Source of the DNA: Aequorivita capsosiphonis DSM 23843
GTDB lineage: Bacteria > Bacteroidota > Bacteroidia > Flavobacteriales > Flavobacteriaceae
DNA length: 64,000 bases
Assembly: GCF_000429125.1 (NCBI RefSeq)
Contig: NZ_AUBG01000001.1
Location: 372,001 to 436,000, forward strand
Direction: 5' to 3'
Of the stretch, positions 10,294 to 60,874 are shown piece by piece. A program made the translations under genes and the position numbers. Under the pieces are notes generated by a model, which made no database searches, was not told the DNA's origin, and saw nothing but the letters and a program-made list of their open reading frames with translations. Positions within the stretch are counted from its first letter, which is position 1. Each line of letters begins with the position of its first letter.

Positions 10294-10342
10294 GATTCAA
10301 GGTTCAATATTGAATGTTCAATGTTCAAGAATCAACGTTCAA
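10294..10342. repeat. Seven-unit degenerate heptamer array upstream of udk and wbqC-like gene
   Basis: Seven successive heptamers end in TTCAA or a near match: GATTCAA, GGTTCAA, TATTGAA, TGTTCAA, TGTTCAA, GAATCAA, CGTTCAA. Only the last five bases are conserved, while the first two vary. The array sits 32 bases outside the udk start, in the divergent gap before 10479. Forty-nine bases keep the period exactly. Confidence 0.75.
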
Positions 10343-10478
10343 AATTACAGTTTAAACAATACTTATCCATAATCCTTTTTTTATAGAATTTAACTTTTGA
10401 TGTTGATTTCTTTTTTCCTCCCACGGTGAGCAAAAGTTTTCGATTTCTTTGTTATTTTTGAAGTAGTAATATCTCAAA

Positions 10479-11126
10479 ATGAAAAAAATCCTCGTCCATC
10501 CCTCCTATTTTCCTTCCATTGAACAAATGGCTGCTATTGCACAAGCAGAAAAGGTAGTCTTTGAAGTTGAGGATAATTACCAAAAACAAACCTACCGAAA
10601 CCGCGCCTATATTGCGCATAGCAATGGAGAACTCCTTTTAAACATTCCCATCAAACACAGCAAGAATGGGGAACGTCAAAAAATGAAGAATATACTAGTG
10701 GAAAATGACTTTCCGTGGCAAGATCTACATTGGAAAAGCCTACAGAGTGCATATCGCACCTCTCCATTTTTTGAATATTACGAAGATGACCTAGAACCAT
10801 TATTTAGCGAAAAGGTTGAAAGTTTAATGGATTATAACTTGAGAATTGCTGAAATTTTATTCGAATTAATAGGAATAGAAGCCGAAGTTTCCACAACGAA
10901 AGTTTACGAAGTTTCCCCCGAAATTCAAGATCTTCGTTTTTTAGTTAATGCCAAAAGAAAGTCAACTTTTCAGCCTGAACAATACACGCAAGTCCACGAA
11001 GCAAATCATCCCTTTTTACCAAATCTTTCCGTTTTGGATTTGCTGTTTAATGAAGGGCCGAATTCTTTGATTTACTTAGAAGAGTCCTCTCTGCCCTGCG
11101 GGCATCTCCCCAGAGGGGAGAAATAA
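10479..11126 (+). CDS. WbqC-family protein
   Basis: A 215-residue WbqC-like protein. The family signature is clear: HPSYFPSIEQMAAIAQA at the N-terminus (the usual form is PxYFPSIxQ), the YRNRAYIAHSNGELLLNIP segment, WQDLHWKSLQSAYRTSPFFEYY, and FLPNLSVLDLLFNEGP near the end. WbqC proteins occur in O-antigen clusters and are often proposed to act in sugar-nucleotide or glycolipid processing; activity is unproven. The last 14 residues (EESSLPCGHLPRGEK) come from GC-rich palindromic repeat DNA rather than from the family sequence, which normally ends soon after the FNEGP segment. A TATTTTTG box at 10453-10460 lies 18 bases before the ATG. Confidence 0.88.
   Translation: MKKILVHPSYFPSIEQMAAIAQAEKVVFEVEDNYQKQTYRNRAYIAHSNGELLLNIPIKHSKNGERQKMKNILVENDFPWQDLHWKSLQSAYRTSPFFEYYEDDLEPLFSEKVESLMDYNLRIAEILFELIGIEAEVSTTKVYEVSPEIQDLRFLVNAKRKSTFQPEQYTQVHEANHPFLPNLSVLDLLFNEGPNSLIYLEESSLPCGHLPRGEK
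11092..11121. repeat. Two tandem GC-rich palindromes at the wbqC 3' end
   Basis: TGCCC-TGC-GGGCA at 11092-11104 and CTCCCC-AGA-GGGGAG at 11106-11120 form two small hairpins. They lie inside the coding sequence and provide its last 12 codons or so. The second palindrome resembles the CCCCT/AGGGG elements at 28100, 33099 and 55286. Confidence 0.65.
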
Positions 11127-11188
11127 CACGAAAACTGCCTCAACAAGAATCCCACTCGACGGCTAAGGAGAATTGCTCATTGAACTTC

Positions 11189-11280
11189 AATAATAATAAT
11201 AATAATAATAATAATGCGTCCTAGTGAGAATCATCCTCCACGCCCCGAGTAAATGTTCCTCCTTCGGGGGCAAGGGGGGA
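11189..11280. repeat. AAT microsatellite and GC-rich tail before the EEP gene
   Basis: Nine perfect copies of AAT occupy 11189-11215. The rest of the gap, to 11280, is non-coding and includes another GC-rich stretch (CCTTCGGGGG, AAGGGGGG). Perfect trinucleotide runs of this size suggest recent slippage. No promoter or gene is seen in it. Confidence 0.6.
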
Positions 11281-12297
11281 TTACCATCCAATCGTCGCCT
11301 TAATCGCTCTATGGTCTGAGAAAGTTTTATTTATTGTTTCAAAAGTAAGAAAGTCCAATCCTTTTGATGCAAGAATATAGTCAATACGCAACGGAAATTT
11401 GTCAAATTCAAAAGTAGTTCCCAAGCCATTTCCGCGTTCCCTAAAAGAGTCTTGCATCCCATTTTTCAACATATGATAACTATATGAAAAAGGGGTGTTA
11501 TTAAAATCACCACACACAAGAATTGGATGTTTCGTATTACTTTGATGCTTCAAAATAGCTTGTATCTGGTTTTGCTGCTTTGTAAAGGCTGAAGAGATTC
11601 GTTTTCTAAGTTTTTCATTATCAGTTTCTTTTAAAAATCTAATTCTCGGGTTTACATCTATTGACTGAAGGTGAAGATTGTAAACACGGATGGTATCATT
11701 CCCTTTTATCAGATCAGCAAAGAGGGTATTGTTGTGAGAACCTTCAAAATCGAAAGCGCCTGTGTTTATTATGGGATATTTCGACAAAAAAGCATGTCCC
11801 AATTCAGCTCTAGGTCTTCTAAAGTGAAGATATTGATATGGATAAGCTGAAAAATCAACCTTGTTAAATCTATAAAATTCCTGAATACAGATAACATCCG
11901 GATCTTGTTCGGCAAGGATTTCGGACATCATTTGAACTGCATCGGTTTCTGGATTCTTTTCATAAGCGTTAAACAAACGTACGTTATAGGAAAGTACACT
12001 CAACGTGTTTTTGTATTGTGAAGCATCTCCTCCTTTGGATACTTCATAAAACACATTAAAGTAAAAATAGGAAACAAAGAGAACGGTGAAGGAGAGAAAA
12101 AATCGAGCTCTTAGCTGGATAGCCCAATAAAGAGCAAAAATAATATTAAGCAGTATGATCAGTGGTACGAACAAGCTCAACAATGAAATTGTGGGAAAGG
12201 TTTTTGGCGGTAAATACGGCAATACAAAAGAAATCAACAATAAAAAAGCCGCAATCAAATTGACCCAAAAAATCAGTTTATTGAAGAATCTTCCCAT
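11281..12297 (-). CDS. Membrane-anchored endonuclease/exonuclease/phosphatase family protein
   Basis: 338 residues with three N-terminal membrane segments (about 12-29, 36-60, 66-85) and a C-terminal EEP domain. The metal-site phrases are present: LSYNVRLFNAY (Asn), IQEFYRF (Glu), HLQSIDVNPR, CGDFNNTPFSYSY (Asp-Asn) and SDHRAIKA (Asp-His). The domain would face the outside or periplasm if the three helices are all inserted. Substrates of this family range from nucleic acids to phospholipids; the membrane anchor points to lipid or extracellular phosphodiester cleavage, but this is inference. Last gene in the run that starts at 17598; 5 bases separate it from the upstream rhomboid gene. Confidence 0.82.
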   Translation of the reverse strand: MGRFFNKLIFWVNLIAAFLLLISFVLPYLPPKTFPTISLLSLFVPLIILLNIIFALYWAIQLRARFFLSFTVLFVSYFYFNVFYEVSKGGDASQYKNTLSVLSYNVRLFNAYEKNPETDAVQMMSEILAEQDPDVICIQEFYRFNKVDFSAYPYQYLHFRRPRAELGHAFLSKYPIINTGAFDFEGSHNNTLFADLIKGNDTIRVYNLHLQSIDVNPRIRFLKETDNEKLRKRISSAFTKQQNQIQAILKHQSNTKHPILVCGDFNNTPFSYSYHMLKNGMQDSFRERGNGLGTTFEFDKFPLRIDYILASKGLDFLTFETINKTFSDHRAIKATIGW

Positions 12298-12302
12298 TAT
12301 GC

Positions 12303-13178
12303 TTAGTCCTCTTTACCCGCTTTAAAAAGGAAATCTTTTTCTTCTTTTGTAAGGCTTTCGTATCCGCTCTTGCCAATTTTATCCAAAATACCATCTATCT
12401 TTTTCTGATGATCAGATTTTGAATCCTTGGGTTTAGAAGGCTTTGTTTTAGGTTGCGCTGTACGATGTACCGTTTTGAAGGGTTTTTTAGTTCGTGGTTT
12501 AAAAAGATCAGCAATCCAGTCCATAAAATTTTCAAACCATTTGCCAATGTCATTGCCTTTAGCCAATTGTACTGCATAGGTATAGCCAAAAACCGCACCA
12601 CCCACATGAGCCATTAAACCTCCTGCATTACCTGATGAAGGAATACGTATTAAATCTAAAAGGAAAAGTACAATGGCAATATGCCAAAGCTTGATAGTGA
12701 AGGTGAATATTCGCACTTGCGTGTTTGGCGTATAGGTAGCGATAAAAATCATAATCGCAGTTACCGCGCCCGAAGCTCCAATTAAATAACCACGGCTTTC
12801 TGCAAAAACCGGAAAAAGATTATAGGCCAATACAAATAGTAAACCACCAAATAAGGCTCCCAATAAATATATTGTCAGCAATCGTTTTCCTGTAAATAGG
12901 GTCAAAACAAATTGTCCAAACCAATACAGCCATATCATATTAAAGAAAATATGGAAGAAACCAAAATGAAGAAATCCGTATGTAATTAACGTCCATGGAT
13001 GGATTAAAAGCGTATTCAAACTATCGCTTAGCACAAACCATCTAGAAAAATACTGCGGACTTATACTTAAAAAAAAGGAACTCAAGTTGACTATTAAAAA
13101 CACGGCTACATTGATAACAATGAGCTTCACCAAGATATTGGCTGTTTTATATTTATATGAAAGACTTGTAGCAGCCAT
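12303..13178 (-). CDS. Rhomboid-family intramembrane serine protease
   Basis: A 291-residue rhomboid protease with six hydrophobic segments. The catalytic dyad is visible: Ser136 in GASGAV and His191 in LMAHVGGAVFG; the WTLITYGFLHFGFFHIFFNM segment holds the conserved loop and HxxxN. A basic Lys/Pro-rich cytosolic extension of roughly 80 residues follows (about 218-265). It is the second of two adjacent rhomboids (two-base gap from the upstream one), so the pair probably derives from an old duplication. Substrates unknown. Confidence 0.92.
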   Translation of the reverse strand: MAATSLSYKYKTANILVKLIVINVAVFLIVNLSSFFLSISPQYFSRWFVLSDSLNTLLIHPWTLITYGFLHFGFFHIFFNMIWLYWFGQFVLTLFTGKRLLTIYLLGALFGGLLFVLAYNLFPVFAESRGYLIGASGAVTAIMIFIATYTPNTQVRIFTFTIKLWHIAIVLFLLDLIRIPSSGNAGGLMAHVGGAVFGYTYAVQLAKGNDIGKWFENFMDWIADLFKPRTKKPFKTVHRTAQPKTKPSKPKDSKSDHQKKIDGILDKIGKSGYESLTKEEKDFLFKAGKED

Positions 13179-13180
13179 AA

Positions 13181-13924
13181 TTAATTCCAGCGGTGATTAT
13201 CAAAACTGTTCTTCTTCCAATACCAAGCCATAATAAAGCCAAATAGAGCGCCTCCAATATGCGCCCAATGCGCGATTCCAGTACCTGTTCCTGTAATTCC
13301 AAAAATTAAATCCATTAGAATAATTCCTGGAATAAAATATTTCGCTTTAATAGGAATAGGAAGGAAAATCAACATTAGTTCTATATTTGGGAACATGATT
13401 CCAAAAGCCACCAGCACACCATACACGGCACCCGAAGCCCCAAGAGCCACACCGTTGTACGACTGCGCCATAGATGTTATTTGATCCATCGAAACGGTAT
13501 CTAGCACAGATTGGCTTCCGCCATTACCTCCAGCTAAATAACTCATAATCTGGTCTTGGCTCCATCCACCGGCTAATAATGAATCCATAACGCTGTGAAC
13601 ATTATAATAGTTCACCAAAGTGTGTATTATGGCTGCGCCCAGTCCTGCCGAAAAATAAAAAAACAGAAACTTCTTTTGGCCCCAGCGCATTTCTAATGGC
13701 GAACCAAAAGCCCAGAGCGCATACATATTAAAAAGTATATGGAATATGGAGGTAGGATCGTGCATAAACATATGCGTAATTGGCTGCCAATATTGAAAAT
13801 TAGGGTTTTCAAAGTAGTAGAGCGCAAACAATTTCAGCGATACATCGCCTATTAAAAATGATCCTATATAAAAGATCACATTGATAATTAAAAGAAATTT
13901 TACTGTATCGGTTATTTTTCCCAT
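13181..13924 (-). CDS. Rhomboid-family intramembrane serine protease
   Basis: A 247-residue rhomboid with the dyad Ser164 (GASGAVYG) and His222 (WAHIGGALFG), plus the WQPITHMFMHD and HILFNMYALWAFG segments. Compared with its downstream neighbour it carries an insertion of roughly 40 residues (LAGGWSQDQIMSYLAGGNGG) between segments before the catalytic serine, and lacks the basic C-terminal tail. It follows mutL with a 72-base gap, on the same strand. The pair next to mutL is a recurring Flavobacteriaceae arrangement from general knowledge. Confidence 0.92.
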   Translation of the reverse strand: MGKITDTVKFLLIINVIFYIGSFLIGDVSLKLFALYYFENPNFQYWQPITHMFMHDPTSIFHILFNMYALWAFGSPLEMRWGQKKFLFFYFSAGLGAAIIHTLVNYYNVHSVMDSLLAGGWSQDQIMSYLAGGNGGSQSVLDTVSMDQITSMAQSYNGVALGASGAVYGVLVAFGIMFPNIELMLIFLPIPIKAKYFIPGIILMDLIFGITGTGTGIAHWAHIGGALFGFIMAWYWKKNSFDNHRWN

Positions 13925-13996
13925 AGTTTTTCCTGCCTTTCGATTATCGCTGAGGATAATTTTCGGCAGTTATTTTTTCACCCAAAAGGTTTGGTT

Positions 13997-15841
13997 TTAC
14001 ATAAATTTTCTATCAAAATCGCTAACATCCATGGTTGTAAACACCGGTTTGTTATTTGGACTTACCGTTGGCTCCTTACAGGCAAAAAGCTGGTTAATTA
14101 AATGTTCCCGCTCTTCTTTGTTTAAAGAAACGCCTGTTTTAATCGCCATTCCAGCGGCCATTGATTTTGCCAACATATCATTCTGACTAAACCCGCTATC
14201 GGGCACTTCTTCTTTTATATCGTTTACCAATTGCTGCAGCAAATTTACAACATGGCTCTCCATAATCAACACAGGAATACCGCTAATCTCAATGGTTTCG
14301 TTTTTCAATTCTGAAAACACAAAACCGGTATTTTCAAGTTGCTCCCGTATTTTTTCAATGATATCGACATCCGGCTTGGAGAAATGCAACTCCAACGGAA
14401 ACAACAATTGTTGGCTCACCGCTTCTTTTACCGTGATGTTTTTTAATAATTCTTCGTAAAGAATACGTTGATGTGCGAGATTTTGATGCACGATCATCAT
14501 TCCATTTTTCAACGGACTTACAATATATTTATTCTGAAGCTGAAACGTTATCTGTCCAGATTCAAGATCGCTATTTTCAAAAAGACTTCCCGTTACTTCT
14601 TCGCTTTCAAATTCAATATCGCCCAAGCCAGAGACTTCTGTGTTTTCATCTTTTAGTCCCACGTAAAGCGATTCCCAGGAAGAAGCTTGTTCTCGTTTAT
14701 AAGGAAATCTAATATTTCCCTGCTTCGGCTTATCCTTAAATGGATTAAAATCTCTATCAACTTCTACGGAAGGCGCTGTTGGCGATTTTTTACTGTATTC
14801 ATAAGGCGTATCAAAACCTTTATCCCGTTCAAAATCCAATACCGGTGCAATGTTGAATTGTCCCAAACTGTGTTTTACCGTCGCTCGTAGCATCGCATAA
14901 ATTGAATGCTCATCGTCAAATTTTATTTCGGTTTTTGTTGGGTGAATATTGATATCGATGGAATGCGGATCTACTTCTAAAAATAAAAAATAGCCTGGGT
15001 GGACGCCACTTTTCATCAAGCCTTCAAAAGCCGAAGAAACTGCGTGATGTAGATACGGACTTTTAATAAACCGATCATTTACAAAAAAGAACTGTTCTCC
15101 CCTGCTTTTCTTTCCGAATTCAGGTTTTAAGACGAAACCTTCAATTTTTAAAATTTCGGTTTCTTCAGTTACGGGAACCAGTTTTTCATTGGTCTTACTT
15201 CCGAAGATATTTACAATACGTTGTCGCGAATTAGATGCAGGCAGATTAAAAACATCGCTCCCATTGTGAAGCATTTGAAAGGCAACACTTGGATGTGCCA
15301 AAGCCACACGATGAAATTCATCAATAATATGGCGCGTTTCTACGGGATTGCTTTTTAAGAAATTTCTACGTGCGGGAATATTATAAAAAAGATTTTTTAC
15401 TGAAATAGTCGTCCCTTTTGGAACAACAGCCGGATCTTGTGAAATCACTTTGCTGCCTTCAATGGTGAGATGGGTGCCAATATCAGAATCTTCAGTTCTA
15501 GTTTTCAACTCCACATGGGCAATAGCGGCGATGGAAGCCAAGGCTTCCCCACGAAAACCTTTGGTATGAAGATTAAAAAGATCTTCCGCCGATTTAATTT
15601 TTGAAGTAGCGTGACGTTCAAAACTGAGTCGTGCATCGGTAATGCTCATTCCGCCACCATTATCCGTAACCTGAACAAGCGTCTTTCCAGCGTCTTTAAC
15701 AACAAGGGTTATGGAAGTTGCTTTTGCATCAATGGCATTCTCCAGCAACTCCTTCACTACAGAAGCAGGGCGTTGTACAACCTCCCCTGCTGCAATTTGG
15801 TTTGCAACGTGATCCGGTAATAACTGAATGATGTCTGACAT
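13997..15841 (-). CDS. mutL: DNA mismatch repair protein MutL
   Basis: Binds MutS-mismatch complexes and couples them to strand incision. 614 residues. The N-terminal GHKL ATPase is complete: ENAIDAKATSI, DNGGGM and TKGFRGEAL motifs. The C-terminal dimerisation domain is present, but the endonuclease motif DQHAxxExxxxE is altered to HQNLAHQRILYE at residues 452-463 and the later CPHGRP-type motif reads SPNNKPVF, so the metal-dependent nickase site looks lost. In most bacteria lacking MutH, MutL nicks DNA; this copy would need another nuclease. It lies in the cotranscribed run ribH to EEP. Confidence 0.95.
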   Translation of the reverse strand: MSDIIQLLPDHVANQIAAGEVVQRPASVVKELLENAIDAKATSITLVVKDAGKTLVQVTDNGGGMSITDARLSFERHATSKIKSAEDLFNLHTKGFRGEALASIAAIAHVELKTRTEDSDIGTHLTIEGSKVISQDPAVVPKGTTISVKNLFYNIPARRNFLKSNPVETRHIIDEFHRVALAHPSVAFQMLHNGSDVFNLPASNSRQRIVNIFGSKTNEKLVPVTEETEILKIEGFVLKPEFGKKSRGEQFFFVNDRFIKSPYLHHAVSSAFEGLMKSGVHPGYFLFLEVDPHSIDINIHPTKTEIKFDDEHSIYAMLRATVKHSLGQFNIAPVLDFERDKGFDTPYEYSKKSPTAPSVEVDRDFNPFKDKPKQGNIRFPYKREQASSWESLYVGLKDENTEVSGLGDIEFESEEVTGSLFENSDLESGQITFQLQNKYIVSPLKNGMMIVHQNLAHQRILYEELLKNITVKEAVSQQLLFPLELHFSKPDVDIIEKIREQLENTGFVFSELKNETIEISGIPVLIMESHVVNLLQQLVNDIKEEVPDSGFSQNDMLAKSMAAGMAIKTGVSLNKEEREHLINQLFACKEPTVSPNNKPVFTTMDVSDFDRKFM

Positions 15842-16132: not shown

Positions 16133-16215
16133 AATTGTTGTGCTTCAAAGGTATTGAAAATACTGTGTTTTGTAAAGTATTTTGAAAGCTTGTTTTGAAC
16201 AATTACCGTACCAAT

Positions 16216-16263
16216 GTTCAGTGGTCAGTGAGCAGTATTCAGTTGCAATTGCAATGTGCAGTA
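16216..16263. repeat. Degenerate heptamer array between small membrane gene and ribH
   Basis: Four heptamers end in CAGT (GTTCAGT, GGTCAGT, GAGCAGT, ATTCAGT), followed after a one-base phase change by TTGCAAT, TGCAATG and TGCAGTA. The gap from 16133 to 16332 is otherwise unremarkable except for two copies of a TTTGAAT-type unit. The motif is related to the perfect array at 48723. Confidence 0.6.
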
Positions 16264-16332
16264 GAGATAACGAAAATACTTTGAATCTTAAAATTTCGGT
16301 TACTGAGCGAAGTCGAAGTATGAACTTTGAAT

Positions 16333-18984: not shown

Positions 18985-19061
18985 CTCTGTGCCCTCTGTG
19001 CCTCTGTGGTGAAATAATTGCACGCAAAGCCGCAAAAACGCAAAGAACTAAAAATCCTAAA
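18985..19061. repeat. Octamer-period arrays between recF and lipoprotein gene
   Basis: Right after the recF stop come three CTCTGTG-type units with 8-9 base spacing (CTCTGTGCC, CTCTGTGC, CTCTGTGG), then at 19022-19061 five 8-base units led by ACGCAAAG (ACGCAAAG, CCGCAAAA, ACGCAAAG, AACTAAAA, ATCCTAAA). They fill nearly all of the 80-base gap. Similar GCAAAGAC units occur at 31984. Confidence 0.6.
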
Positions 19062-19064: not shown

Positions 19065-19487
19065 ATGAAATACAAAATCACAATTTTACTGCTTACCGTT
19101 TTTTTCATTGCCTGTGAAAAACCCAATCCCGAAGAACAAAAGCAAATCCTCAACGGGTATTGGGAAATAGAAACCGTAAAAATGCCAAGTGGCAAAAAGA
19201 AAGATTTTAGAGCCAATACCATTGTTGATTATATTGAAGTGAAAGGCGACAGCGGTATCCGCACCAAGGTTTCACCAAAACTTGACGGTAGCTTTAGAAC
19301 AAACGGTGTTTCAGAGAACTTCACATTAAAAATTGAAGCGGACAGCTTGCGGATGTATTACAAAACTCCTTTCGATGAATGGAAAGAAACCGTGATTGAA
19401 GCGAAAGACAGCACCCTGGTGGTAAAAAACAGAGATAACAAGATTTATACATACTCCACTTTTGAAAAATTCGATTTTGGAGAATAA
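19065..19487 (+). CDS. Lipocalin-like lipoprotein
   Basis: 140 residues. A signal peptide with lipobox FIAC (Cys about 17) makes it a probable lipoprotein. The rest is a small beta-rich domain: LNGYWEIETVKMPSGKKKDF, TIVDYIEVKGDSG, SENFTLKIEADSLRMYY, STLVVKNRDNKIYTYSTFEKFD, in the style of lipocalin-like (DUF4923/DUF5004) proteins that bind small hydrophobic molecules. The family is inferred from pattern only. It lies between recF and a DUF721 gene, separated by repeat DNA, so operon structure is uncertain. Confidence 0.65.
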   Translation: MKYKITILLLTVFFIACEKPNPEEQKQILNGYWEIETVKMPSGKKKDFRANTIVDYIEVKGDSGIRTKVSPKLDGSFRTNGVSENFTLKIEADSLRMYYKTPFDEWKETVIEAKDSTLVVKNRDNKIYTYSTFEKFDFGE

Positions 19488-19490: not shown

Positions 19491-19531
19491 GGTTGCAGGT
19501 TGCAGGTTGCAGGTTGCAGGTTGCAGGTTGC
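19491..19531. repeat. Near-perfect heptamer array (GGTTGCA)
   Basis: Five full copies of GGTTGCA plus six bases of a sixth (41 bases, perfect). It starts three bases after the stop codon of the lipoprotein gene and is followed by the octamer array at 19550. A perfect period-7 run of this size is likely recently expanded. Confidence 0.9.
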
Positions 19532-19549
19532 CTAAAAAAATCAAACTAA

Positions 19550-19589
19550 ACTTCTAAACTCATAAACTTCTAAACCTTTAAACTTTTAA
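19550..19589. repeat. Octamer array (ACTTCTAA type)
   Basis: Five 8-base units: ACTTCTAA, ACTCATAA, ACTTCTAA, ACCTTTAA, ACTTTTAA, ending six bases before the DUF721 ATG. A second array of this kind lies at 48843, also downstream of a heptamer array. Confidence 0.75.
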
Positions 19590-19595
19590 AAAAAA

Positions 19596-25293: not shown

Positions 25294-25368
25294 ATATTTA
25301 AAACAGGACGAAAAAAGATTATTCCTCTTTTCTCTTTATTCTTTCCTCTTTATTCTATCTCCTTTCCT

Positions 25369-28099: not shown

Positions 28100-28341
28100 G
28101 CACGCCCCCTGCCCCCTAAAGAGGAAAGACAAAATAACAGCAAAATTTTAAACTCCCTTTAGGGTTGGGGTAAAACGCTGTGAAACTGGGCTTCGGTACA
28201 TCCCGATGAAAAATCGGGACACTCCGCCATCTTGGATTTGGTGTTTAAATTACTTTTAATAAAAATTTGAATCGATTTATAGGAAAGAGTGATTTGTTAA
28301 CTCACTTAACGTTGTGAAATTTTCACCACTCACCACTCAAG
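28100..28341. repeat. Composite repeat region in the gap after DUF3810 gene
   Basis: The 254-base gap to the next gene holds no open frame worth calling. Seen: GC-rich CCCCCT/GCCCCCTAAAG blocks near 28103-28121, CCCTTTAGGG near 28155-28164, a 7-base inverted repeat TCCCGAT / ATCGGGA at 28201-28219 and a short 7-base-step run (TTTCACC, ACTCACC, ACTCAAG) at 28321-28341. All are dispersed-repeat types found elsewhere in this window. Confidence 0.55.
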
Positions 28342-29278: not shown

Positions 29279-29313
29279 TAGTCGGTAGTCGGTAGACGAT
29301 AGTTGGTAGTTTT
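29279..29313. repeat. Degenerate heptamer array (TAGTCGG type)
   Basis: Five heptamers TAGTCGG, TAGTCGG, TAGACGA, TAGTTGG, TAGTTTT, ending 11 bases before the 3' end of the T9SS gene at 29325. The first two are perfect, the others drift. Confidence 0.7.
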
Positions 29314-31337: not shown

Positions 31338-31965
31338 AATTTTCAGTATTGCTCTTGTAATTTCCGCATCCGCAATTGCCCAAGAATCCAATAAATCAGA
31401 AAACCCAATAATTGAAACCTCACAAGACTCAATAAAACCTGGCAAAGATGTAGGTAGCATCGTTATAGGCCCTTACTTTCCGGTATCATTTGGAGATAAC
31501 TTTGTAAACAACGGAATGGATCTAAAACTTGGAGCACGTATTTCCTTCAAGGTGAATGCGTATAAAGGATTTTATATTGGCCCATATTTCAGCTTTTTTA
31601 ATGGTGACGTAAACAATCCTGAATTATTAGGAAATTACTACAGTACCACCAATACAGTTGTTGGAGCTATTGCGGGTTACGAAAAACACCTTAAAAATTT
31701 CGATGTTAGCATTGGAGTTGGTGTAGGTGCTTCAAGATACAATAACCATGGTTTTAAAGATACCGCCACGGCAGTTTGGCTAAACCCAGAAGTCAGCTAT
31801 CGATTAACAACTTATTTAGGTGTTTATTTTACGCCAGAACTACGTCATGATTTTATGAATATCGATACACCTTCTGAATTAAAAGACACCTTTAACGGCG
31901 TAAATTACTTCAATCTCAGTTTTGGGCTTCGCATAAATTTGGGAACGGCTTATAGAAATTTGTAG
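31321..31965 (+). CDS. Outer-membrane beta-barrel protein
   Basis: 214 residues; a signal peptide about 1-20 (ALVISASAIAQ). The rest has alternating strands GSIVIGPYFPVSFGDN, DLKLGARISFKVNAYKGFYIGPYFSFF, NTVVGAIAGYEKHL, DVSIGVGVGASRY, NPEVSYRLTTYLGVYFTPELRH and NYFNLSFGLRINLGT, as in outer-membrane barrels of the OmpA/OmpW-like type. Coupled to the lipoprotein before it by overlap. A secretion or adhesion partner is possible, not shown. Confidence 0.68.
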   Translation: MFSNFKIFSIALVISASAIAQESNKSENPIIETSQDSIKPGKDVGSIVIGPYFPVSFGDNFVNNGMDLKLGARISFKVNAYKGFYIGPYFSFFNGDVNNPELLGNYYSTTNTVVGAIAGYEKHLKNFDVSIGVGVGASRYNNHGFKDTATAVWLNPEVSYRLTTYLGVYFTPELRHDFMNIDTPSELKDTFNGVNYFNLSFGLRINLGTAYRNL

Positions 31966-31983
31966 CTTAATAATACTGTTTTA

Positions 31984-32112
31984 GCGAAGACGCAAAGACG
32001 CTAAGAATATTTTCTTAAGAAATACTGAAGGTCAGATTTCAGAAAAATCTTAATTATACTCTTGATATGTTTACCTTTGCATCCTAGCGTCCTTGCCTGC
32101 CAGATGGCAGGT
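31984..32112. repeat. Octamer units and palindrome upstream of RNA methyltransferase
   Basis: Three 8-base units GCGAAGAC, GCAAAGAC, GCTAAGAA at 31984-32007 and a palindrome CCTGCCA-GA-TGGCAGG at about 32095-32110. A TACCTTTG box at 32072-32079 may be the -7 element for the gene at 32138; no -33 partner was found. Confidence 0.5.
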
Positions 32113-32137
32113 TTGCGAAAAAATTTTTACAAACAGC

Positions 32138-32941
32138 ATGCAAAAAAACATTACCAGCCTTCAGAACCCACTGATAAAACAGATTATTCTACTTCAGGAG
32201 AAATCGCGCGAGCGTCGCAAAACCAATCTTTTTGTTATTGAGGGATTGCGCGAAATTTCATTAGCGCTGAAAGGTGGGTATGCTTTGAAAACACTTCTTT
32301 TCTGTCCAGAAATTATTTCCGAAGAAGACGTTTTTAAACTGAAAGAATCTTGCAACAATGAAACAGAGCTTATAGAAATCACTTCTGAAATCTATGAAAA
32401 GTTAGCCTACCGAAGTTCTACCGAAGGAATTTTAGCGGTGGCTCATACAAAAGATTTAAGTCTGTTAAACTATAAACCACAAACCACAAACTCTTTAATT
32501 CTAATTGCTGAAGCTCCCGAAAAACCAGGAAACATTGGCGCGCTCCTTCGAACCGCCGATGCAGCAAATGTAGATGCCGTAATAATCGCAAATCCAAAAA
32601 CAGATTTATACAATCCAAACATCATCCGTAGTAGTGTGGGTTGTCTGTTTACCAATACGATTGCCACGGGAAGTACTTCAGAAATAATTTCGTTCTTAAA
32701 ACAAAACAATATCAACATTTACTGCGCCGCTCTACAAGCAGCTGTAAATTACGATACAATAGATTTCAAAGAAAGCACCGCTATAGTCGTTGGCACCGAA
32801 GCCACGGGTCTTTCAGAAGAATGGCTTAAAAACAGCACCCAAAACATCATCATCCCAATGCAAGGCGAAATAGATAGTATAAATGTATCAGTAGCAGCAG
32901 GAATTCTTGTTTTTGAAGCGAAAAGACAGCGTGGGTTTTAG
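32138..32941 (+). CDS. TrmH-family RNA 2'-O-methyltransferase
   Basis: SPOUT-fold methyltransferase that 2'-O-methylates rRNA or tRNA. From the ATG at 32138 it has 267 residues (the frame opens 45 bases upstream, but that part runs through the palindrome). N-terminal substrate-binding domain (about 1-105: KQIILLQEKSRERRKTNLFVIEG), then the SpoU core: GNIGALLRTADAANVDAV, NIIRSSVGCLFTN, VVGTEATGLSEEW and IPMQGEIDSINVSVAAGI (about 245-262), forming the knot and SAM site. The exact RNA target is not predictable. Confidence 0.93.
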   Translation: MQKNITSLQNPLIKQIILLQEKSRERRKTNLFVIEGLREISLALKGGYALKTLLFCPEIISEEDVFKLKESCNNETELIEITSEIYEKLAYRSSTEGILAVAHTKDLSLLNYKPQTTNSLILIAEAPEKPGNIGALLRTADAANVDAVIIANPKTDLYNPNIIRSSVGCLFTNTIATGSTSEIISFLKQNNINIYCAALQAAVNYDTIDFKESTAIVVGTEATGLSEEWLKNSTQNIIIPMQGEIDSINVSVAAGILVFEAKRQRGF

Positions 32942-33110
32942 TATTCAGTTGCAGTTTGCAGTCAAAAAAACGGAGTCTCAAAAAATACCCCAATCCTAAA
33001 GGGAGCAGACCGTACTCATTAATAGAAGCTGGGAAAAAACCAGAAAAATATTTAACATAAACTAAAACACCCAAACCCAAAAGAGAATTGTCTTTGCACC
33101 CCTTTAGGGG
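32942..33110. repeat. Short heptamer run and GC palindrome after RNA methyltransferase
   Basis: Directly after the stop codon, TATTCAG, TTGCAGT, TTGCAGT (32942-32962) keep a 7-base step. Further on, CCCCT-TT-AGGGG at 33099-33110 is a perfect palindrome of the class seen at 11106 and 55286. The M48 gene follows at 33132. No gene lies between. Confidence 0.5.
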
Positions 33111-38299: not shown

Positions 38300-38467
38300 A
38301 AATTGATGTATTAAGTAATAAAGTCAATATAAGAAGATTCGGTGTCGTTTACTAATCAAACAACACACTTTCAAGTAGTAAAACAACCAGTTTACGCAAT
38401 CAAGCCTAGGCAAGCTCCAATGTGTCTACATTTTTATGCACAACGGTCATCCGTCATCAAATAAAAA

Positions 38468-38514
38468 CATTCAACAATAAACCTTAAACAATAAACAATA
38501 GAATATTATCTTTG
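38468..38514 (+). promoter_or_regulatory. pheT upstream: heptamer array touching a -7 promoter box
   Basis: CATTCAA, CAATAAA, CCTTAAA, CAATAAA and CAATAGA run as five 7-base units (38468-38502). Four bases later is TATCTTTG (38507-38514), a full TAnnTTTG box 23 bases before the pheT ATG. No good TTTG at 17-20 bases is present, because the array occupies that place. Confidence 0.55.
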
Positions 38515-48719: not shown

Positions 48720-48722
48720 GAT

Positions 48723-48781
48723 TCAGTGGTCAGTGGTCAGTGGTCAGTGGTCAGTGGTCAGTGGTCAGTGGTCAGTGGTCA
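48723..48781. repeat. Perfect heptamer array (TCAGTGG)
   Basis: Eight perfect copies of TCAGTGG plus three bases of a ninth (59 bases). It starts three bases after the stop codon of the DUF2007 copy. Being perfect and long, it is likely to vary in length between strains. Confidence 0.93.
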
Positions 48782-48842
48782 AAAATAAATTTAAAAAATA
48801 GTACTCCAAAAAATTAGGGGCTTAAAAGTTTATAAGATATTC

Positions 48843-48874
48843 TCTCCTAAACTTTTAACCCCCTAAACTTTTAA
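48843..48874. repeat. Octamer array between DUF2007 and ABC-F genes
   Basis: TCTCCTAA, ACTTTTAA, CCCCCTAA, ACTTTTAA keep an 8-base step, followed by CCCTCTCAA, right before the ABC-F stop at 48892. The ACTTTTAA unit is shared with the array at 19550. Confidence 0.7.
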
Positions 48875-48891
48875 CCCTCTCAACGTATCAA

Positions 48892-50523
<1,632 letters not shown>

Positions 50524-54020: not shown

Positions 54021-54073
54021 TGCCATTTTTTGTTCCGCTCCCAAAATTTCGAGAGCGGGAACAAAAAATGGCA
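54021..54073. repeat. Large inverted repeat adjoining the SRP RNA 3' end
   Basis: Left arm 54021-54040 (TGCCATTTTTTGTTCCGCTC) and right arm 54053-54073, its reverse complement apart from one bulged base, around a 12-base AT-rich loop. The right arm contains the last bases of the SRP RNA gene (54070-54073). On the minus strand the U-rich ATTTTTT follows the RNA directly, so the hairpin probably includes its terminator. Confidence 0.7.
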
Positions 54074-54163
54074 AGCTACCTACATCACACCGCTACGACC
54101 ATTTACCTTTGCTGCGTTCCCGCCCTGGAGGATTCAACAGGAGCTGGTTGTGTAGGACTTGCC
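54070..54163 (-). ncRNA. ffs: Signal recognition particle RNA (4.5S-like, bacterial small)
   Basis: About 94 bases, minus strand. The ends GGCAAG and CTTGCC pair, followed by ACACAACC / GGTGTGAT-type pairing. The apical SRP54-binding helix has CCTCCAGGGC, GGGAACGCAGCAAAGG and GGTCGTAGCGG, the symmetric-loop region with the conserved GGAA/GCAGCAA pattern of 4.5S RNA. It is too short for the ORF-based view and has no coding counterpart. It partners Ffh (not in window) in membrane targeting of nascent proteins. A strong promoter sits immediately upstream. Confidence 0.88.
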
Positions 54164-54167
54164 GCTG

Positions 54168-54197
54168 CAAAGATAAGGCTTTTTACAATTTTTGCAA
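54168..54197 (-). promoter_or_regulatory. Promoter of the SRP RNA gene
   Basis: Minus strand: TTG (54195-54197), 19-base spacer, TATCTTTG (54168-54175). This is the best TTG-N19-TAnnTTTG match in the window. Transcription would start near 54163, as the RNA ends require. Confidence 0.8.
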
Positions 54198-55301: not shown

Positions 55302-55340
55302 GGGCGAACGATGCTGCAAACTGCAACTATCAACTGAAAA
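55286..55340. repeat. GC palindrome plus heptamer array after QC gene
   Basis: CCCCCTAACCCCCTAAGGG at 55286-55304 contains the stop codon of the QC gene; then GCTGCAA, ACTGCAA, CTATCAA, CTGAAAA at 55313-55340 keep a 7-base step. Confidence 0.6.
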
Positions 55341-55404
55341 CTTCTTCAACCTTTACAATAATAAGCTTCATAAAAAGTTATATTTTTACCAAAATTTTAC
55401 TTGA

Positions 55405-56980: not shown

Positions 56981-57004
56981 GATACAATATGAAGTGTAAT
57001 TATA

Positions 57005-57484
57005 TTAATAATCTACTCTCCCTTCTTTCTCTTCCCACTTTTTAAAAACTTTTCGGCCTTCCTCCCTATCCAGATTGATAAACTTTACATTTCGGTCTTC
57101 AATCTTTTTATCTATTTCGTCATAGATAAAGTGATCGTCAAAACCAATTTCGGCGGCATCTTCCTTGGTGCAAGCATAGTAAACCGCTTTGGGTCTTGCC
57201 CAATAAATAGCGCCCAAACACATTGGGCAAGGCTCGCAGGAAGTGTATATAATACAATCATCCAATTGAAAAGATCCTAACTTCTCGCAAGCCTTTCGAA
57301 TAGCAACAACCTCCGCATGGGCAGTTGGATCGTTACTAGAAGTAACAGCATTAAATCCTTCGGCTATTATTTCGCCATTTTTAACCACTACAGCGCCAAA
57401 TGGTCCTCCTGCTTGGGAATCCATTCCTTTTTCAGAAAGCTCTATGGCGCGTTTTATAAATCTGTTGTCTTGTTCCGTAATCAT
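57005..57484 (-). CDS. guaD: Guanine deaminase (GuaD-like)
   Basis: 159 residues, cytidine-deaminase fold. Zinc site His56 (TAHAE, with Glu58) and Cys86/Cys89 in PCPMC. The length and C-terminal extension with IYDEIDKKIEDRNVKFI and the GPFGAVVVKNG, VTSSNDPTAHAE and IYWARPKAVYYACTKEDAAEIGFDD phrases follow B. subtilis GuaD, a domain-swapped dimer converting guanine to xanthine. A GNAT gene lies 15 bases upstream on the same strand. Confidence 0.9.
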   Translation of the reverse strand: MITEQDNRFIKRAIELSEKGMDSQAGGPFGAVVVKNGEIIAEGFNAVTSSNDPTAHAEVVAIRKACEKLGSFQLDDCIIYTSCEPCPMCLGAIYWARPKAVYYACTKEDAAEIGFDDHFIYDEIDKKIEDRNVKFINLDREEGRKVFKKWEEKEGRVDY

Positions 57485-57499
57485 ATTTTATTTTTAATG

Positions 57500-57994
57500 T
57501 TAATTTGAAAATAATAATAACTCCTCATCATCACCATAGGAATACGTTCCAACTTCTGAAAGTCCTAATTTCTTTAAAAGCTTGATGGAGGAAGCATTCT
57601 CAGGCAATGTAAAACCGACTATTTTATGAACTCCTAAATCTTCCGAAGCATATTTCATAATTGCATGAGCCGCCTCAAAAGCATAGCCTTTATTGAAATA
57701 TTCGGGCAAAAAAGCAAAACCAATATCTGGATGGTCAAGATTCTCTCGTTGGTAAAGTCCTGAAGAACCAATTTCCGAACCATCCTTTAATGTAACCAAA
57801 TAAGGACCAAAACCTTGATTTTTATAACTAGGTATGTAATTTTTCAGCAAATAGGTTTCGGCGTCTTGAATGGAATTAATATTTCTATTCCCAATATTTT
57901 TAAGCCAGCCTTCGCTATTCATAAGTTTGTAAATGAAATGCGCATCATCACGTGTATATTTGCGTATAATAAGTCGGTCGGTTTCTATTTTCAT
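57500..57994 (-). CDS. GNAT-family N-acetyltransferase
   Basis: 164 residues in the RimJ/RimL-type group: MKIETDRLIIRKYTRDDAHFIYKL start, SGLYQRENLDHPDIGFAFLPEYFNKGYAFEAAHAIM and the CoA-binding YAFEAAHAIMKYASEDL, ENASSIKLLKKLGLSEVG. Likely acetylates a protein or small amine; the target is unknown. Fifteen bases from guaD suggests one transcript. Confidence 0.87.
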   Translation of the reverse strand: MKIETDRLIIRKYTRDDAHFIYKLMNSEGWLKNIGNRNINSIQDAETYLLKNYIPSYKNQGFGPYLVTLKDGSEIGSSGLYQRENLDHPDIGFAFLPEYFNKGYAFEAAHAIMKYASEDLGVHKIVGFTLPENASSIKLLKKLGLSEVGTYSYGDDEELLLFSN

Positions 57995-58061
57995 CGGTTA
58001 ATATGAAGAAAGTGTTTGGAGTATCAAAGATAAATAATTGAAGCTTGCTGAATCCCTCAAT

Positions 58062-58095
58062 TAAAAAAACCTTTAGCTTTTCAACTGAAGGTTTT
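58062..58095 (-). terminator. Terminator of the lipoprotein gene at 58119
   Basis: AACCTTTAG (58068-58076) and CTGAAGGTT (58085-58093) around CTTTTCAA, with a run of seven T on the minus-strand 3' side. The stem is nearly the same as that at 59465-59489. Confidence 0.75.
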
Positions 58096-58118
58096 TATCA
58101 AAAATCAAACAAACTGCT

Positions 58119-59378
58119 CTAATCATATTTTTTAGACACACCTTCATAAATACCATTTTCGGGGATTTCATATACATTGCCCTGAATTCTATACTTCAAA
58201 ATATCTTTATATAAACTTAGTGTATTATAATGGCTCAACAAAACCGAGCCTAACGGTAATGTTTGAAAATCTCTAAGTTTTGGATAAGATTGTTGAATAT
58301 TAATTCGTACATTTTTCTTAGAAAAAGTTATCTCGGGAGCGACTTCGCCATATACAGAATGCGACATAAATACGGTTTCACTTGAATTTGATCCACGGAA
58401 AATCACGTTGTAAAGAGTGGCATCGCCATTAGTAGTCATATTAAAATTTGAGGCAGATTGATTATTTACCACAAAACTTATTTCTGGTGTAGCAATAGAA
58501 GTAGGAATTGTAGGTGCATTTATATCTTTAAAGTATTGAAAATTATCATTACCGAAACTAACGCGGAACAAATAACTGTCAAAAACATTCGTAGCCACCG
58601 GAATTGAAAGTGAAGTCATTCCACTTGGATAATTTCCTTCTCGAATAGGTTGGTATATATTGTTAGTCATCCCATTAACCAAACCTTCAAGTCCATAATT
58701 ATATATGTTATTAGAAGGAGATTGAACAGTCACGATATTTTCAATTTCTGGCAATGTATTATAGTCAATATTGAAGATAGAACCTTCTTCAATATCTTCT
58801 TGCCAAAAATATCTATCAAGTTGGTCATTTGGACTTTTAAAGGAAACATAAAAATCACTTGTAGGAGAACCTTTTAAATTACTACGGAATTTATAATATC
58901 CTCCATTTTCAGGGCCATAAGTTCCAGCGCTTGTTGTACTTGAAGTTACTTCACAGGGATAACCTGTATTTTCTAGATTTATATAAATTTCGTCGTTCGA
59001 GTTTTCTATAGCCTGTCTGGGAAATATAGTATAATCTCCTTGCTCAACATCTGAAAAAGTTTTCAGTGAAAAAAGATCCTCGTCCACAAAATCCAAATAA
59101 TCATATTTCATATAACTTAAGTCGTAAATAGCTGATGGTTCTCCCGAATAACTTAATGTTAGTGTTTCACCTATTTGTAATTCGCCTCTGGCTAGAATTG
59201 ATCCGCTTTCATCACTAAGAAAGGCTGTCAGGCTTTGAGTAAAGTTGGAAAAGCGATAATCGGGATCAACATGAATGGTTATAGTGAAATCTTGCAATCC
59301 TGAACCTGTATCATCTACATCATTTGAACAGCTAAACAGAATCGCGGAAAACAATAGAAGAAAGAATATATTTTTCAT
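58119..59378 (-). CDS. Lipoprotein of unknown function
   Basis: 419 residues with lipobox FSC near residue 17 (MKNIFFLLLFSAILFSCSN). The rest is beta-rich with many Tyr/Asn/Ser: FTITIHVDPDYRFSNFTQSLTAFLSDE, ITHLxIGE-like strands (GELQIGETLTLSYSGE), GYYKFRSNLKGSPTSDFYVSFKSPND, then a C-terminal part with SEVKKNVRINIQQSYPKLRDFQ-type helix-strand. I recognise no domain. Surface lipoprotein likely. It sits between two similar hairpins. Confidence 0.62.
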   Translation of the reverse strand: MKNIFFLLLFSAILFSCSNDVDDTGSGLQDFTITIHVDPDYRFSNFTQSLTAFLSDESGSILARGELQIGETLTLSYSGEPSAIYDLSYMKYDYLDFVDEDLFSLKTFSDVEQGDYTIFPRQAIENSNDEIYINLENTGYPCEVTSSTTSAGTYGPENGGYYKFRSNLKGSPTSDFYVSFKSPNDQLDRYFWQEDIEEGSIFNIDYNTLPEIENIVTVQSPSNNIYNYGLEGLVNGMTNNIYQPIREGNYPSGMTSLSIPVATNVFDSYLFRVSFGNDNFQYFKDINAPTIPTSIATPEISFVVNNQSASNFNMTTNGDATLYNVIFRGSNSSETVFMSHSVYGEVAPEITFSKKNVRINIQQSYPKLRDFQTLPLGSVLLSHYNTLSLYKDILKYRIQGNVYEIPENGIYEGVSKKYD

Positions 59379-59460
59379 AACAATAGGTTTTAATGTATTT
59401 TAAGATTTTAAACTCTTTACCTTATAGTCTTAAAAACGCTGAAAGGTTGCGTTGAAAACA

Positions 59461-59489
59461 AAAAAACCTTCAGCGGTTAACTGAAGGTT
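59461..59489 (-). terminator. Terminator of glyA
   Basis: AACCTTCAG (59465-59473) and CTGAAGGTT (59481-59489) around CGGTTAA, followed on the minus strand by six or more T. It lies 24 bases downstream of the glyA stop. Confidence 0.85.
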
Positions 59490-59513
59490 ATATAAAATTT
59501 AGATGAATATTCT

Positions 59514-60788
59514 TTACATTTTAAACAATGGTAATCCGGACATCATTTCATTTACCTTTTCGGCAATGCTTTCAAGTTTGGCATCATCGTCACGGTTTGA
59601 AATCACCTCATCTACCAAATCAACAATTTTCCCCATATCTTTTTCCACCAAACCACGGGTTGTAACCGCAGCTGTTCCAACACGAATTCCGCTGGTTACA
59701 AATGGAGATCGGTCATCAAAGGGAACCATGTTTTTATTCACAGTAATATCTGCCTTCCCTAATGCTTCCTCAGCTTCCTTTCCGGAAAGATTCTTATTGC
59801 GAAGATCGATCAGCATCACATGAGTATCAGTTCCACCTGAAACAACATCGTATCCCTTATCCATAAAACGCTGTGCCATTATTGCTGCATTCTTCTTTAC
59901 TTGCACCATATAATGAAGGAAGTCATCCGTCAAAGCTTCGCCAAAAGCAATGGCTTTAGCTGCAATTATATGCTCTAGTGGTCCACCTTGATTCCCAGGA
60001 AAAACAGCACTGTTCAATAAGGAGCTCATTTTTTTAAGTTTTCCGTTTTTCAATTTTTGACCAAATGGATTTTCAAAATCCTTACCCATCATTATCATCC
60101 CACCGCGAGGACCGCGCAAGGTTTTATGGGTAGTTGTGGTAACTATATGACAATGCGGAAGTGGATCTCCTATAATTCCTTTGGCGATCAAACCCGCAGG
60201 ATGCGCAATATCGGCCATCAATAACGCGCCAACTTTGTCTGCAATTTCACGGAACCTTTTATAGTCCATTTCGCGTCCGTATGCCGAGGCACCCGCGATT
60301 ATCATTTTCGGCTTCTCTTTTATCGCCATGGCTTCCACCATATCATAATCTATCAGGCCAGTTTCCTTTACAACACCATAAAATACAGGCTGGTAAAGTT
60401 TTCCTGAAAAATTAACTGGAGAACCATGGGTTAAATGCCCGCCGTGAGAAAGATCAAAACCTAAAAATTTATCGCCTGGTTTTAGACATGCTGCGAAAAC
60501 AGCCGTATTTGCTTGTGACCCACTATGCGGTTGCACGTTTGCATATTCGGCACCAAATAGTGCTTTTGCGCGGTCAATAGCTAGTTGCTCCACCTCGTCT
60601 ACCACTTCGCAACCACCGTAGTAGCGCTTTCCAGGATAGCCTTCAGCATATTTATTAGTTAGAACGGAACCTGCAGCTTCCATAACTTGTCCGCTTACAA
60701 AGTTCTCTGAAGCAATTAGCTCCAGCCCATTTAATTGGCGTTGTTTTTCTTCTTCTATTAATTCAAAAATTTGTTCGTCTCGTTTCAT
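59514..60788 (-). CDS. glyA: Serine hydroxymethyltransferase
   Basis: PLP enzyme that converts serine and tetrahydrofolate to glycine and methylene-THF. 424 residues; opening [26 protein letters not shown], tetrahydrofolate/PLP segments [45 protein letters not shown], the PLP Lys in [14 protein letters not shown], and [12 protein letters not shown]. It is divergent from fahA across 276 bases, a frequently conserved pair in this family. Confidence 0.98.
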
Positions 60789-60800
60789 AGTAAAAGCTTA

Positions 60801-60874
60801 TGGTTTGGGGTTTAAAGTTTAAAAATTACGAGGTATTTCGCTTCAGAACCATAAACCCGAAACAACAAACCTCG
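60801..60874. repeat. Two heptamer arrays and inverted repeats between glyA and fahA
   Basis: TGGTTTG, GGGTTTA, AAGTTTA, AAAATTA (60801-60828) and AACCATA, AACCCGA, AACAACA, AACCTCG (60847-60874) each keep a 7-base step. The two are partly inverted copies: TTATGGTT / AACCATAA and ACGAGG / CCTCGT pair. Further upstream of glyA on the minus strand is TATTTTTG at 60893-60900. The remaining part of the gap, to 61064, is AT-rich without features. Confidence 0.6.

Follow-up and report, generated by a model that had tools for sequence, protein, structure and literature searches.

In the intergenic gaps of Aequorivita capsosiphonis DSM 23843 (Flavobacteriaceae), simple tandem arrays with a step of seven or eight bases are real, genome-wide and, as a set, beyond chance. 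The analysis covers a stretch of 64,000 nucleotides of this genome (the window; contig NZ_AUBG01000001.1, positions 372,001 to 436,000), the 28 sequenced species of the genus and stretches from other phyla. Many arrays with many words, together with these 28 species, allow what is fixed—the step, the place and largely the direction—to be separated from what is variable, namely the word. The arrays gain and lose whole units, change their word at kept places, run preferentially with the G-rich strand into the gap and have facing partner arrays. The best explanation of these features as a whole, held tentatively and at slightly less than even confidence, is that simple heptanucleotide and octanucleotide arrays arise by realignment of a growing DNA end by whole units, with synthesis possibly entering the gap from its two borders.

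Period of the arrays

Arrays were scored in the window genome (G000, sampled at 936 kb of 4.04 Mb) and, pooled with it, in four further species of the genus (G022, 480 kb; G026, 470 kb; G004, 87 kb; G023, 37 kb), amounting to 268 kb of intergenic and 1.72 Mb of coding DNA. Genes were called with our own codon-usage script, and tandem repeats were listed with Tandem Repeats Finder (TRF). Markov shuffles served as the null: 200 for scoring sites in the window, 2 for the five-species census and 20 for autocorrelation. Species pairs and arrays are not independent, and p values are to be read as guides.

The window holds 44 gaps with 7,348 bp, in which 8 segments of period 7 and 4 of period 8 reach the cut-off score of at least 11 where 0.55 and 0.55 are expected; the other periods from 4 to 13 give 0–2 segments each. 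In the five-species gaps there are 114 period-7 and 30 period-8 arrays, with averages of 3.0 and 1.5 in the two shuffles. Periods 4, 5, 6, 9, 10, 11, 12 and 13 give 2, 1, 16, 5, 4, 4, 5 and 7 arrays, which makes the heptamer the commonest period tested (4–13). Coding DNA contributes 15 period-7 and 3 period-8 arrays over its 1.72 Mb, and hence the arrays lie mostly outside it. The fixed 7/8-base step that the initial annotation of the window described thus holds genome-wide. The autocorrelation check on intergenic DNA proposed there gives a clear lag-7 peak for G000 (0.3051 against 0.2887 ± 0.0014 shuffled, z 11.5; 127 kb within an 856-kb sample), and this peak is present separately in G000, G022 and G026. 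Lags 14 (z 4.8), 21 (z 6.1), 8 (z 7.4), 6 (z 7.6) and 9 (z 9.5) are raised as well in G000; for lags 6 and 9 we attribute this in part to unannotated coding DNA.

Array sites in the window

For single sites, the expected value is the number scoring equally well in the shuffled window gaps. Among the 16 sites listed initially, six are clear (48723, 19491, 19546–19590, 10296, 29279, 38466), four are borderline (16212, 31984, 60802, 28323) and five are at chance level singly (55314, 18985, 48843, 60847, 32949); the sixteenth is coding. The array at 25322 was absent from that list. TRF reports the perfect arrays at 19491 and 48723 together with the majority of the degenerate sites.

48723..48781, plus strand: perfect heptads (TCAGTGG)x8.4; TRF 118, score 52, expected 0.00; starts 3 bp past the stop codon of the 48492–48719 gene; left arm of a facing pair.
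48846..48877, minus strand: 16-mer CCTAAACTTTTAACCC x2 (two octamers); TRF 100% match, perfect; skew −15; right arm of that pair, adjoining the stop codon of the ABC-transporter-type gene 48892–50517 (minus strand). The octamer at 48843 as first listed: score 7, expected 6.8, chance level singly.
19491..19531, plus strand: perfect heptads (GGTTGCA)x5.9; score 34, expected 0.00; 3 bp past a stop codon; left arm.
19546..19590, minus strand: octamers CTAAACTT; score 23, expected 0.00; immediately ahead of the dciA start; right arm.
10296..10342, no strand assigned: degenerate TTCAATG/TTCAAGG heptads; score 18, expected 0.03; divergent gap.
29279..29311, plus strand: TAGTCGG heptads; score 16, expected 0.06; between two genes.
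38466..38500, minus strand: AACAATA heptads; score 16, expected 0.06; ahead of the 38538 gene.
25322..25366, minus strand: TTTATTCT-type heptads; score 16, expected 0.06; 2 bp from a stop codon.
16212..16243, plus strand: degenerate TCAGTGG/GCAGTAT heptads; score 11, expected 0.55; borderline.
31984..32006, plus strand: GACGCAAA-type octamers; score 11, expected 0.55; borderline.
60802..60828, plus strand: GTTTGGG/GTTTAAA heptads; score 10, expected 1.07; borderline; upstream of the serine hydroxymethyltransferase gene, where it forms the left arm of a weak facing pair.
60847..60870, minus strand: AACCATA/AACCCGA heptads; score 7, expected 7.1; by itself at chance level; right arm facing 60802.
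28323..28339, minus strand: short TCACCAC run; score 10, expected 1.07; borderline; 10 bp from a stop codon.
55314..55342, minus strand: CTGCAAA/CTGCAAC run; score 8, expected 3.6; chance level singly.
32949..32962, plus strand: TTGCAGT x2; score 7, expected 7.1; chance level singly.
18985..19008, no strand assigned: CTCTGTGCC repeats in an inverted-repeat region; TRF 41, score 8, expected 3.7; chance level singly.
7686–7714: period-7 stretch in the methylmalonyl-CoA mutase frame; score 16, chance expectations being calibrated on gaps only.

Orthologous gaps

At orthologous places the step is kept and the word is exchanged. The convergent gap 48720–48891 is without an array in 23 of 27 relatives, which mostly have a short gap with a hairpin (by eye; G015 stands outside the comparison). 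Its heptads are (TCAGTGG)8 in G000, (TAGTCGG)10 in G023, a long AGTAAGC array in G007 and two short heptads in G022—with CTAAACTT-type octamers at the right of the gap in all four. Between the stop codon at 19487 and the dciA start, G000 carries GGTTGCA and G004 GGATGCT-type heptads, and by eye G023 carries ACCCCTA and G026 ATGACGG; octamers ahead of the dciA start are scored in G000, G022, G026 and G004 and seen by eye in G023. For gap 10263–10478, heptads of the TTCAA/GTTTC kind are scored in four species, those of G022, G023 and G026 being of GTTTCNN type. The place of the 38466 array has scored heptads in G023 and G026 too, that of the 16212 array has scored arrays in G022 and G004 and one seen by eye in G023, the TAGTCGG array at 29279 has a related array in G023 adjoining the orthologous gene, and the weak pair 60802/60847 has a similar layout in G022 and G026 (by eye). 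In one gap that has a conserved terminator, the stretch separating it from the stop codon holds GAGATGT-type heptads in G000 (contig 3, 204160) and AGTCGGT-type heptads in G026. Conservation of the word was not seen at orthologous places in the relatives compared. Over conserved gaps in all ordered pairs of the five species, a period-7 array is found in the orthologous gap in 33/76 cases where the first gap has one, against 41/496 where it has none.

Two neighbouring features were seen beside this comparison. At 18985–19050, CTCTGTG-type and ACGCAAAG octamers stand side by side, and by eye the matching gap of G022 carries a long inverted repeat of the form CTCTGTG...CACAGAG. A word resembling ACTGAGCG(C)AGTCGAAGT, found in the window at about 16299–16323, interrupts a heptad array in G026 contig 2 near 370330 (L138; by eye).

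Gain and loss by whole units

Array length and content were compared between species of the genus, not between strains of one species, and the indels support gain and loss by whole units. A TTAATTG array differs between G023 and G026 by exactly 14 nt, or two heptads. Between G002 and G011, which are 90% identical over 86 kb, a GGTGCTG array differs by one unit, and at another site a single heptad became two. For this pair, indels of 7 nt number 6 (5 of them in heptad sequence, by eye), whereas those of 5, 6, 8 and 9 nt number 9, 1, 0 and 3. G027 and G009 (94% identical) show one 7-nt and one 8-nt indel, both within one poorly aligned stretch. Arrays show at 2 places in 200 kb for G027/G009 (both in G027) and in dozens of rows for G002/G011. 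Relatives thus differ by indels of precisely 7 and 14 nt, and the shared copying mechanism of fixed register suggested initially is still the best reading. In one G000 locus (L026; contig 15, 60814–61010) a run of N lies within a long TCAGTGG array; the assembly may be uncertain there, and hence real array lengths may differ from assembled ones.

Position and direction relative to genes

That the arrays often begin within a few bases of a stop codon, as was noted for the window, is borne out against random placement: with 127 arrays having room to move, the distance to a stop codon is at most 8 bp for 36 period-7-class arrays where 9.8 are expected, and for strong arrays the numbers are 19 and 4.0. 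Equally close to start codons, 20 period-7-class arrays stand against 8.1 expected.

The arrays largely have a preferred direction, with the G-rich strand into the gap. In 111 of 170 cases, the closer of the two flanking genes is the one at the 5' end of the array's own G-rich strand, so that this strand points away from that gene and into the gap. As the cut-off for skew (|G−C|/length) climbs from 0 to 0.25, the inward counts run 111/170, 82/120, 73/102, 53/74 and 42/50. Gap windows without arrays are inward in 2,546/4,774 (53.3%), and compared with this share p is 0.002 for 111/170 and 6.5e-6 for 42/50 (|G−C|/length ≥0.25). At a cut-off of 0.15, convergent gaps give 17/21 (p 0.0072), tandem gaps 44/64 (p 0.012) and divergent gaps 12/17, the last not significant. 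Among period-7 arrays of tandem gaps that stand close to the start of the downstream gene, only 6/26 have the sense strand as their G-rich strand (control 626/1,407), and hence the direction follows the gap and not the transcript.

Facing partner arrays and folding

Facing arrays were counted around TCAGTGG in a cross-phylum set of at least 120 GTDB stretches, the bias of which as a sample is unknown and some of which share one genome. All 120 listed stretches were used for the period-7 partner count and 105 for complementary arms and the stricter partner count, 15 being left out for short flanks, N or a repeated flank. Within 160 bp downstream of the listed TCAGTGG arrays lie 64 period-7 arrays—57 C-rich, 6 G-rich and 1 neutral—and within 160 bp upstream 5, all of them G-rich and 0 C-rich. 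At score 11, 20 of the C-rich partners lack complementarity to the TCAGTGG array that they face. When scoring is stricter and periods 4–12 compete, there are 52 period-7 and 4 period-8 partners downstream against 4 and 1 upstream, other periods contributing 2 and 1 in all; 16 of the downstream partners are C-rich of another motif and 4 are G-rich. A complementary arm with a score of at least 14 follows downstream in 26/105 and upstream in 0/105, and the controls for the downstream arm give 1 (reversed), 2 (complemented) and 3 (direct).

The cyanobacterial motif GGGGAYT, taken from 30 loci out of 402 matches and reduced to 17 sites (L340 gave no match), has 10 period-7 or period-8 arrays downstream against 1 G-rich array upstream; 9 of the 10 are C-rich, 3 of these being octamers, and 1 is neutral. 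Within the genus, facing pairs outnumber back-to-back pairs by 16 to 5 at score 11 (p 0.027), the divergent pairs including TTCCAAA/TTTGGAA among others, and a complementary arm stands in the same gap for 11/131 period-7 arrays against 0–3 in controls. By eye, a TCAGTGG inverted pair apparently lies within an open frame of an Anaerolineae bacterium (L154).

Some arrays may be put to use. Where G022 has an ordinary terminator, G026 has a heptad hairpin of −32.7 kcal/mol (z −4.7, 0/200 shuffles as good); the cross-phylum pair L183 folds with z −5.9 and the window stretch 48720–48860 with z −3.5. The weak pair at 60795–60880 folds no better than shuffles (z −1.4, 16/200). Self-pairing of TCAGTGG via G–U pairs, seen in one fold, was not used as an argument, as inspection suggests that such pairs could also form with the reversed word.

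Recurrence of words

The initial view that the units have unrelated sequences does not hold, as heptads recur at unlinked loci, in other species and in other phyla. Tandem TCAGTGG x2 gives 49 matches at 9 loci of the 4.04-Mb genome and the reversed word 0. TAGTCGG x3 occurs in 5/28 genus genomes, reversed in 0/28, and TCAGTGG x3 in 8/395 genomes sampled over the phylum, reversed in 1/395. The at least 120 GTDB stretches with TCAGTGG x3 include, among the 80 titles listed, Planctomycetes, Anaerolineae, Acidobacteriota, cyanobacteria, Desulfobacterales and Clostridia. Since heptads recur and exact reversed words are absent or rare, the sequence matters besides the register. Within one array, units drift with the phase kept, as from TGAGTGG into GTAGAAA (L068).

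Proposed mechanism

In the favoured reading, the 3' end of growing DNA would shift along its template by 7 (or 8) bases and pair anew while synthesising through a fast-changing gap. The array would thereby grow or shrink by whole units, and point changes would spread along it in phase, so that step and place outlast the word. The G-rich strand would be the strand extended, and synthesis might enter the gap from both borders—owing to a break, a stalled fork or a hairpin inside the gap—leaving facing arrays, which an occasional fold-back step could turn into complementary arms. The 7/8 register itself might be a property of a housekeeping polymerase; a DinB-type polymerase is present in 28/28 genomes, which is consistent with a polymerase origin and is no test of it. 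To account for the direction, a process is needed that converges within the gap from its two sides. Extension of 3' ends from both of them would fit, and is kept conditional as the gap-replacement expectation failed its control and divergent gaps add no separate support.

A further-reaching version is distinctly unlikely as it stands. Here, a break or stall inside the gap would leave two 3' ends, each of which would be extended inward in a fixed 7/8-nt register with a G-rich product before the two are joined, giving like or unlike arms across phyla. General polymerases would make the arrays through a side activity that adds repeats, and the process would be a bacterial counterpart of chromosome-end repeat addition in geometry, not in descent.

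Several results weigh against realignment with two-border entry. Divergent gaps are inward in 12/17 against a control of 57% (p 0.33), which is not beyond control. In 14/102 arrays a run of AAAAA stands after the G-rich strand at its 3' end, and in 2/102 before its 5' end, which the model does not predict. Plain slippage leaves unexplained both the direction and the recurrence of TCAGTGG over phyla with its reverse rare. At stricter scores the facing and back-to-back pairs of the genus number 9 and 3 (score 13, p 0.15) and 5 and 0 (score 15, p 0.062). The pattern AGTNNNN x5 matches in 28/28 genus genomes, the prominent unit varying among the species whose places were listed, yet these counts are of overlapping matches, one long array being counted many times, and the backward pattern used as control, which is a heptad class too, has a similar number of matches, so that the counts show only the genus-wide step; for the close pairs G027/G009 and G002/G011 they overlap (67, 44, 23, 43), and no contrast of array-poor with array-rich species is drawn from them.

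The gaps and their borders give further points of this kind. Alignment cover between array gaps and their array-less orthologues is low (0.32 against 0.68), but the array-less orthologues align mutually hardly better (0.29 against 0.24; 18 gaps, p 0.196). As even array-less orthologues align poorly, array gaps are fast-changing anyway, and break-and-fill thus failed its test. Gene adjacency is equally conserved at array gaps, except in G023 (e.g., 4/7 against 14/16). Beside abutting arrays, C-terminal tails of at least 2 aa occur in 9/52 against 20/245 (Fisher p 0.067), with p 0.044 in the tail rank test and p 0.35 for the drop in identity; on these mixed values, gene truncation by abutting arrays was not adopted as an explanation.

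Deletion or rearrangement scars, suggested by G023, were rejected: outside G023 adjacency at array gaps is conserved as elsewhere, and low gap retention disappeared under a third-species control (18 gaps only). In G023 itself (L136; contig 9, about 31948–32400), no orthologues were found of the 44212–48009 gene—by Pfam a secreted fibronectin-III/MAM/Por_Secre_tail protein—and of a second small gene (48492). Arrays stand at both junctions of the missing genes; G026 is without the large gene too and has no array there.

Alternative explanations

That selection keeps the arrays for a role in RNA or DNA—as terminators, as mRNA 3' ends or as controls resembling quadruplexes—with direction and stop proximity reflecting use, is rather unlikely, even though much of the positional evidence would suit it. 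The excess at stop codons and starts, the heptad hairpin that replaces a terminator in G026, the complementary arms found downstream and never upstream in the TCAGTGG stretches (and in 11 of the 131 genus arrays), and a direction significant in convergent and tandem but not in divergent gaps all fit such use. A sequence-specific site would need a conserved word, however, and word conservation was not seen at orthologous places. Moreover, arrays before downstream starts in tandem gaps are seldom G-rich on the sense strand, partner arms are often non-complementary (20 C-rich of another motif, 16 under the stricter count), and the fold of one window pair does not surpass its shuffles.

Chance seeds might simply slip in place, without any special geometry, direction and motifs coming from composition and common seeds; we consider this unlikely. 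Unit-wise indels are what it expects, the polymerase-contact idea of Mrazek 2007 (as cited in PMC4679880 and PMC4692102) agrees with it, and windows without arrays lean inward too, 53% of them overall and 57% in divergent gaps. Against it stand the 42/50 skewed arrays that are inward beyond that control, the partners of the listed TCAGTGG arrays (57 C-rich against 6 G-rich downstream, 0 against 5 upstream) and the absence or rarity of exact reversed words.

A mobile hairpin element—like the repetitive extragenic palindromic (REP) sequences with RAYT, or like a miniature inverted-repeat transposable element (MITE)—inserted in gaps and with heptads as arms is very unlikely. An inverted element would give the inward layout in either orientation of insertion, and the 26/105 complementary arms and the mild common 3' flank (AAAAA in 14/102) agree with this, whereas the RAYT family is absent in 9/28 genomes, all with heptad matches, partner arms are often of different motif or period, and by eye the loci printed show no common element body, no further search having been aimed at one.

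That a reverse transcriptase or end joining by Ku made the arrays, as the resemblance of facing G-rich 3' arms to additions at two broken ends would suggest, is very improbable. By profile matches, 9, 19 and 15 of the 28 genomes (6, 16 and 12 of the 25 near-complete ones) lack RAYT, RVT_1 (PF00078) and Ku, respectively, while all 28 match AGTNNNN x5; hence none of the three is required in the genus, and they were rejected as makers. The array-rich G023 lacks both PF00078 and Ku. Presence does not track AGTNNNN counts over the 28 genomes either (Mann–Whitney U p 0.20, 0.35 and 0.58 for RAYT, RVT_1 and Ku), reverse transcriptases outside PF00078 being able to escape detection. G000 itself has 5 RAYT matches. 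Ku is patchy in the genus (13/28), with two Ku genes in G000, on contigs 1 (63550) and 9 (5899).

Relation to known repeats

The arrays belong to the known class of heptanucleotide simple repeats of Xanthomonas, cyanobacteria and Beggiatoaceae. The initial comparison with cyanobacterial short tandemly repeated repetitive (STRR) sequences named the right class; closer precedents are GGGAATC/GGGGAYT (PMC4692102) and TAACTGA (PMC4679880). Rehm et al. 2015 (PMC4692102) describe G-rich heptameric repeats, GGGAATC in Xanthomonas and GGGGA(C/T)T in Nostoc, which are intergenic and nearer to the open reading frame on their 5' side irrespective of gene direction, stand near stop codons on the sense strand, vary in length and sequence between relatives and, in two genomes of Xanthomonas, make up 70 and 75 pairs that converge. 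The arrays here share the proximity to the frame on the 5' side of the G-rich strand (divergent gaps alone excepted) and the convergent pairs, which in the genus (16 against 5) weaken under stricter scoring. Unlike those repeats, for which the account in PMC4692102 gives one motif type per genome with G-tracts, they have many motifs per genome, most without GGG, with octamers mixed in, partner arms of unlike motif and exchange of words at orthologous places. The window units TCAGTGG, TAGTCGG, GGTTGCA, TTCAATG and AACAATA do not match GGGNATC/GGGGAYT. Partners of unlike word would presumably have escaped the counting described in PMC4692102.

MacGregor 2015 (PMC4679880) reports intergenic TAACTGA repeats in Bacteroidetes, cyanobacteria and Beggiatoaceae, with other heptads mixed in, indels between two Cyanothece strains mostly in 7-nt steps, and some close relatives without the repeats at the equivalent gap. 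In the main genome of that report they stand mostly just upstream of starts, whereas here the excess at stops is larger (36/9.8 against 20/8.1). TAACTGA is not among the window units in the TRF list; a near relative, TCAGTTG, is present in L058. Mrazek 2007, as cited in these two papers, found heptamers most abundant among long simple sequence repeats. The heptamer excess is seen here too, and the degenerate arrays that drift in phase, as well as their direction, go beyond those repeats as cited. For the heptamer dominance in bacterial simple repeats, the polymerase-contact suggestion is the only explanation given in the papers cited. The tandem repeats of Borgs (PMC9879509) also turn over fast, with many in gaps and their formation mechanism open; as described there they have varied unit lengths, in multiples of three inside open reading frames, the passages on them making no mention of the 7/8 register found here.

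Many words per genome, octamers, unlike facing arms and the exchange of words at fixed places were not found described in the open-licence literature searched, which is weak evidence; this includes facing arrays of unlike word in particular. A single repeat family could hardly yield such arms, and their geometry, which any mechanism must account for, could be tested with reporters.

Other features of the window

A pure AAT x9 run lies at 11189–11215 between two converging genes. A Bacteroidales small signal recognition particle (SRP) RNA, suggestive of a Bacteroidota genome, is found at 54065–54171 on the minus strand (RF04183, 104 bits).

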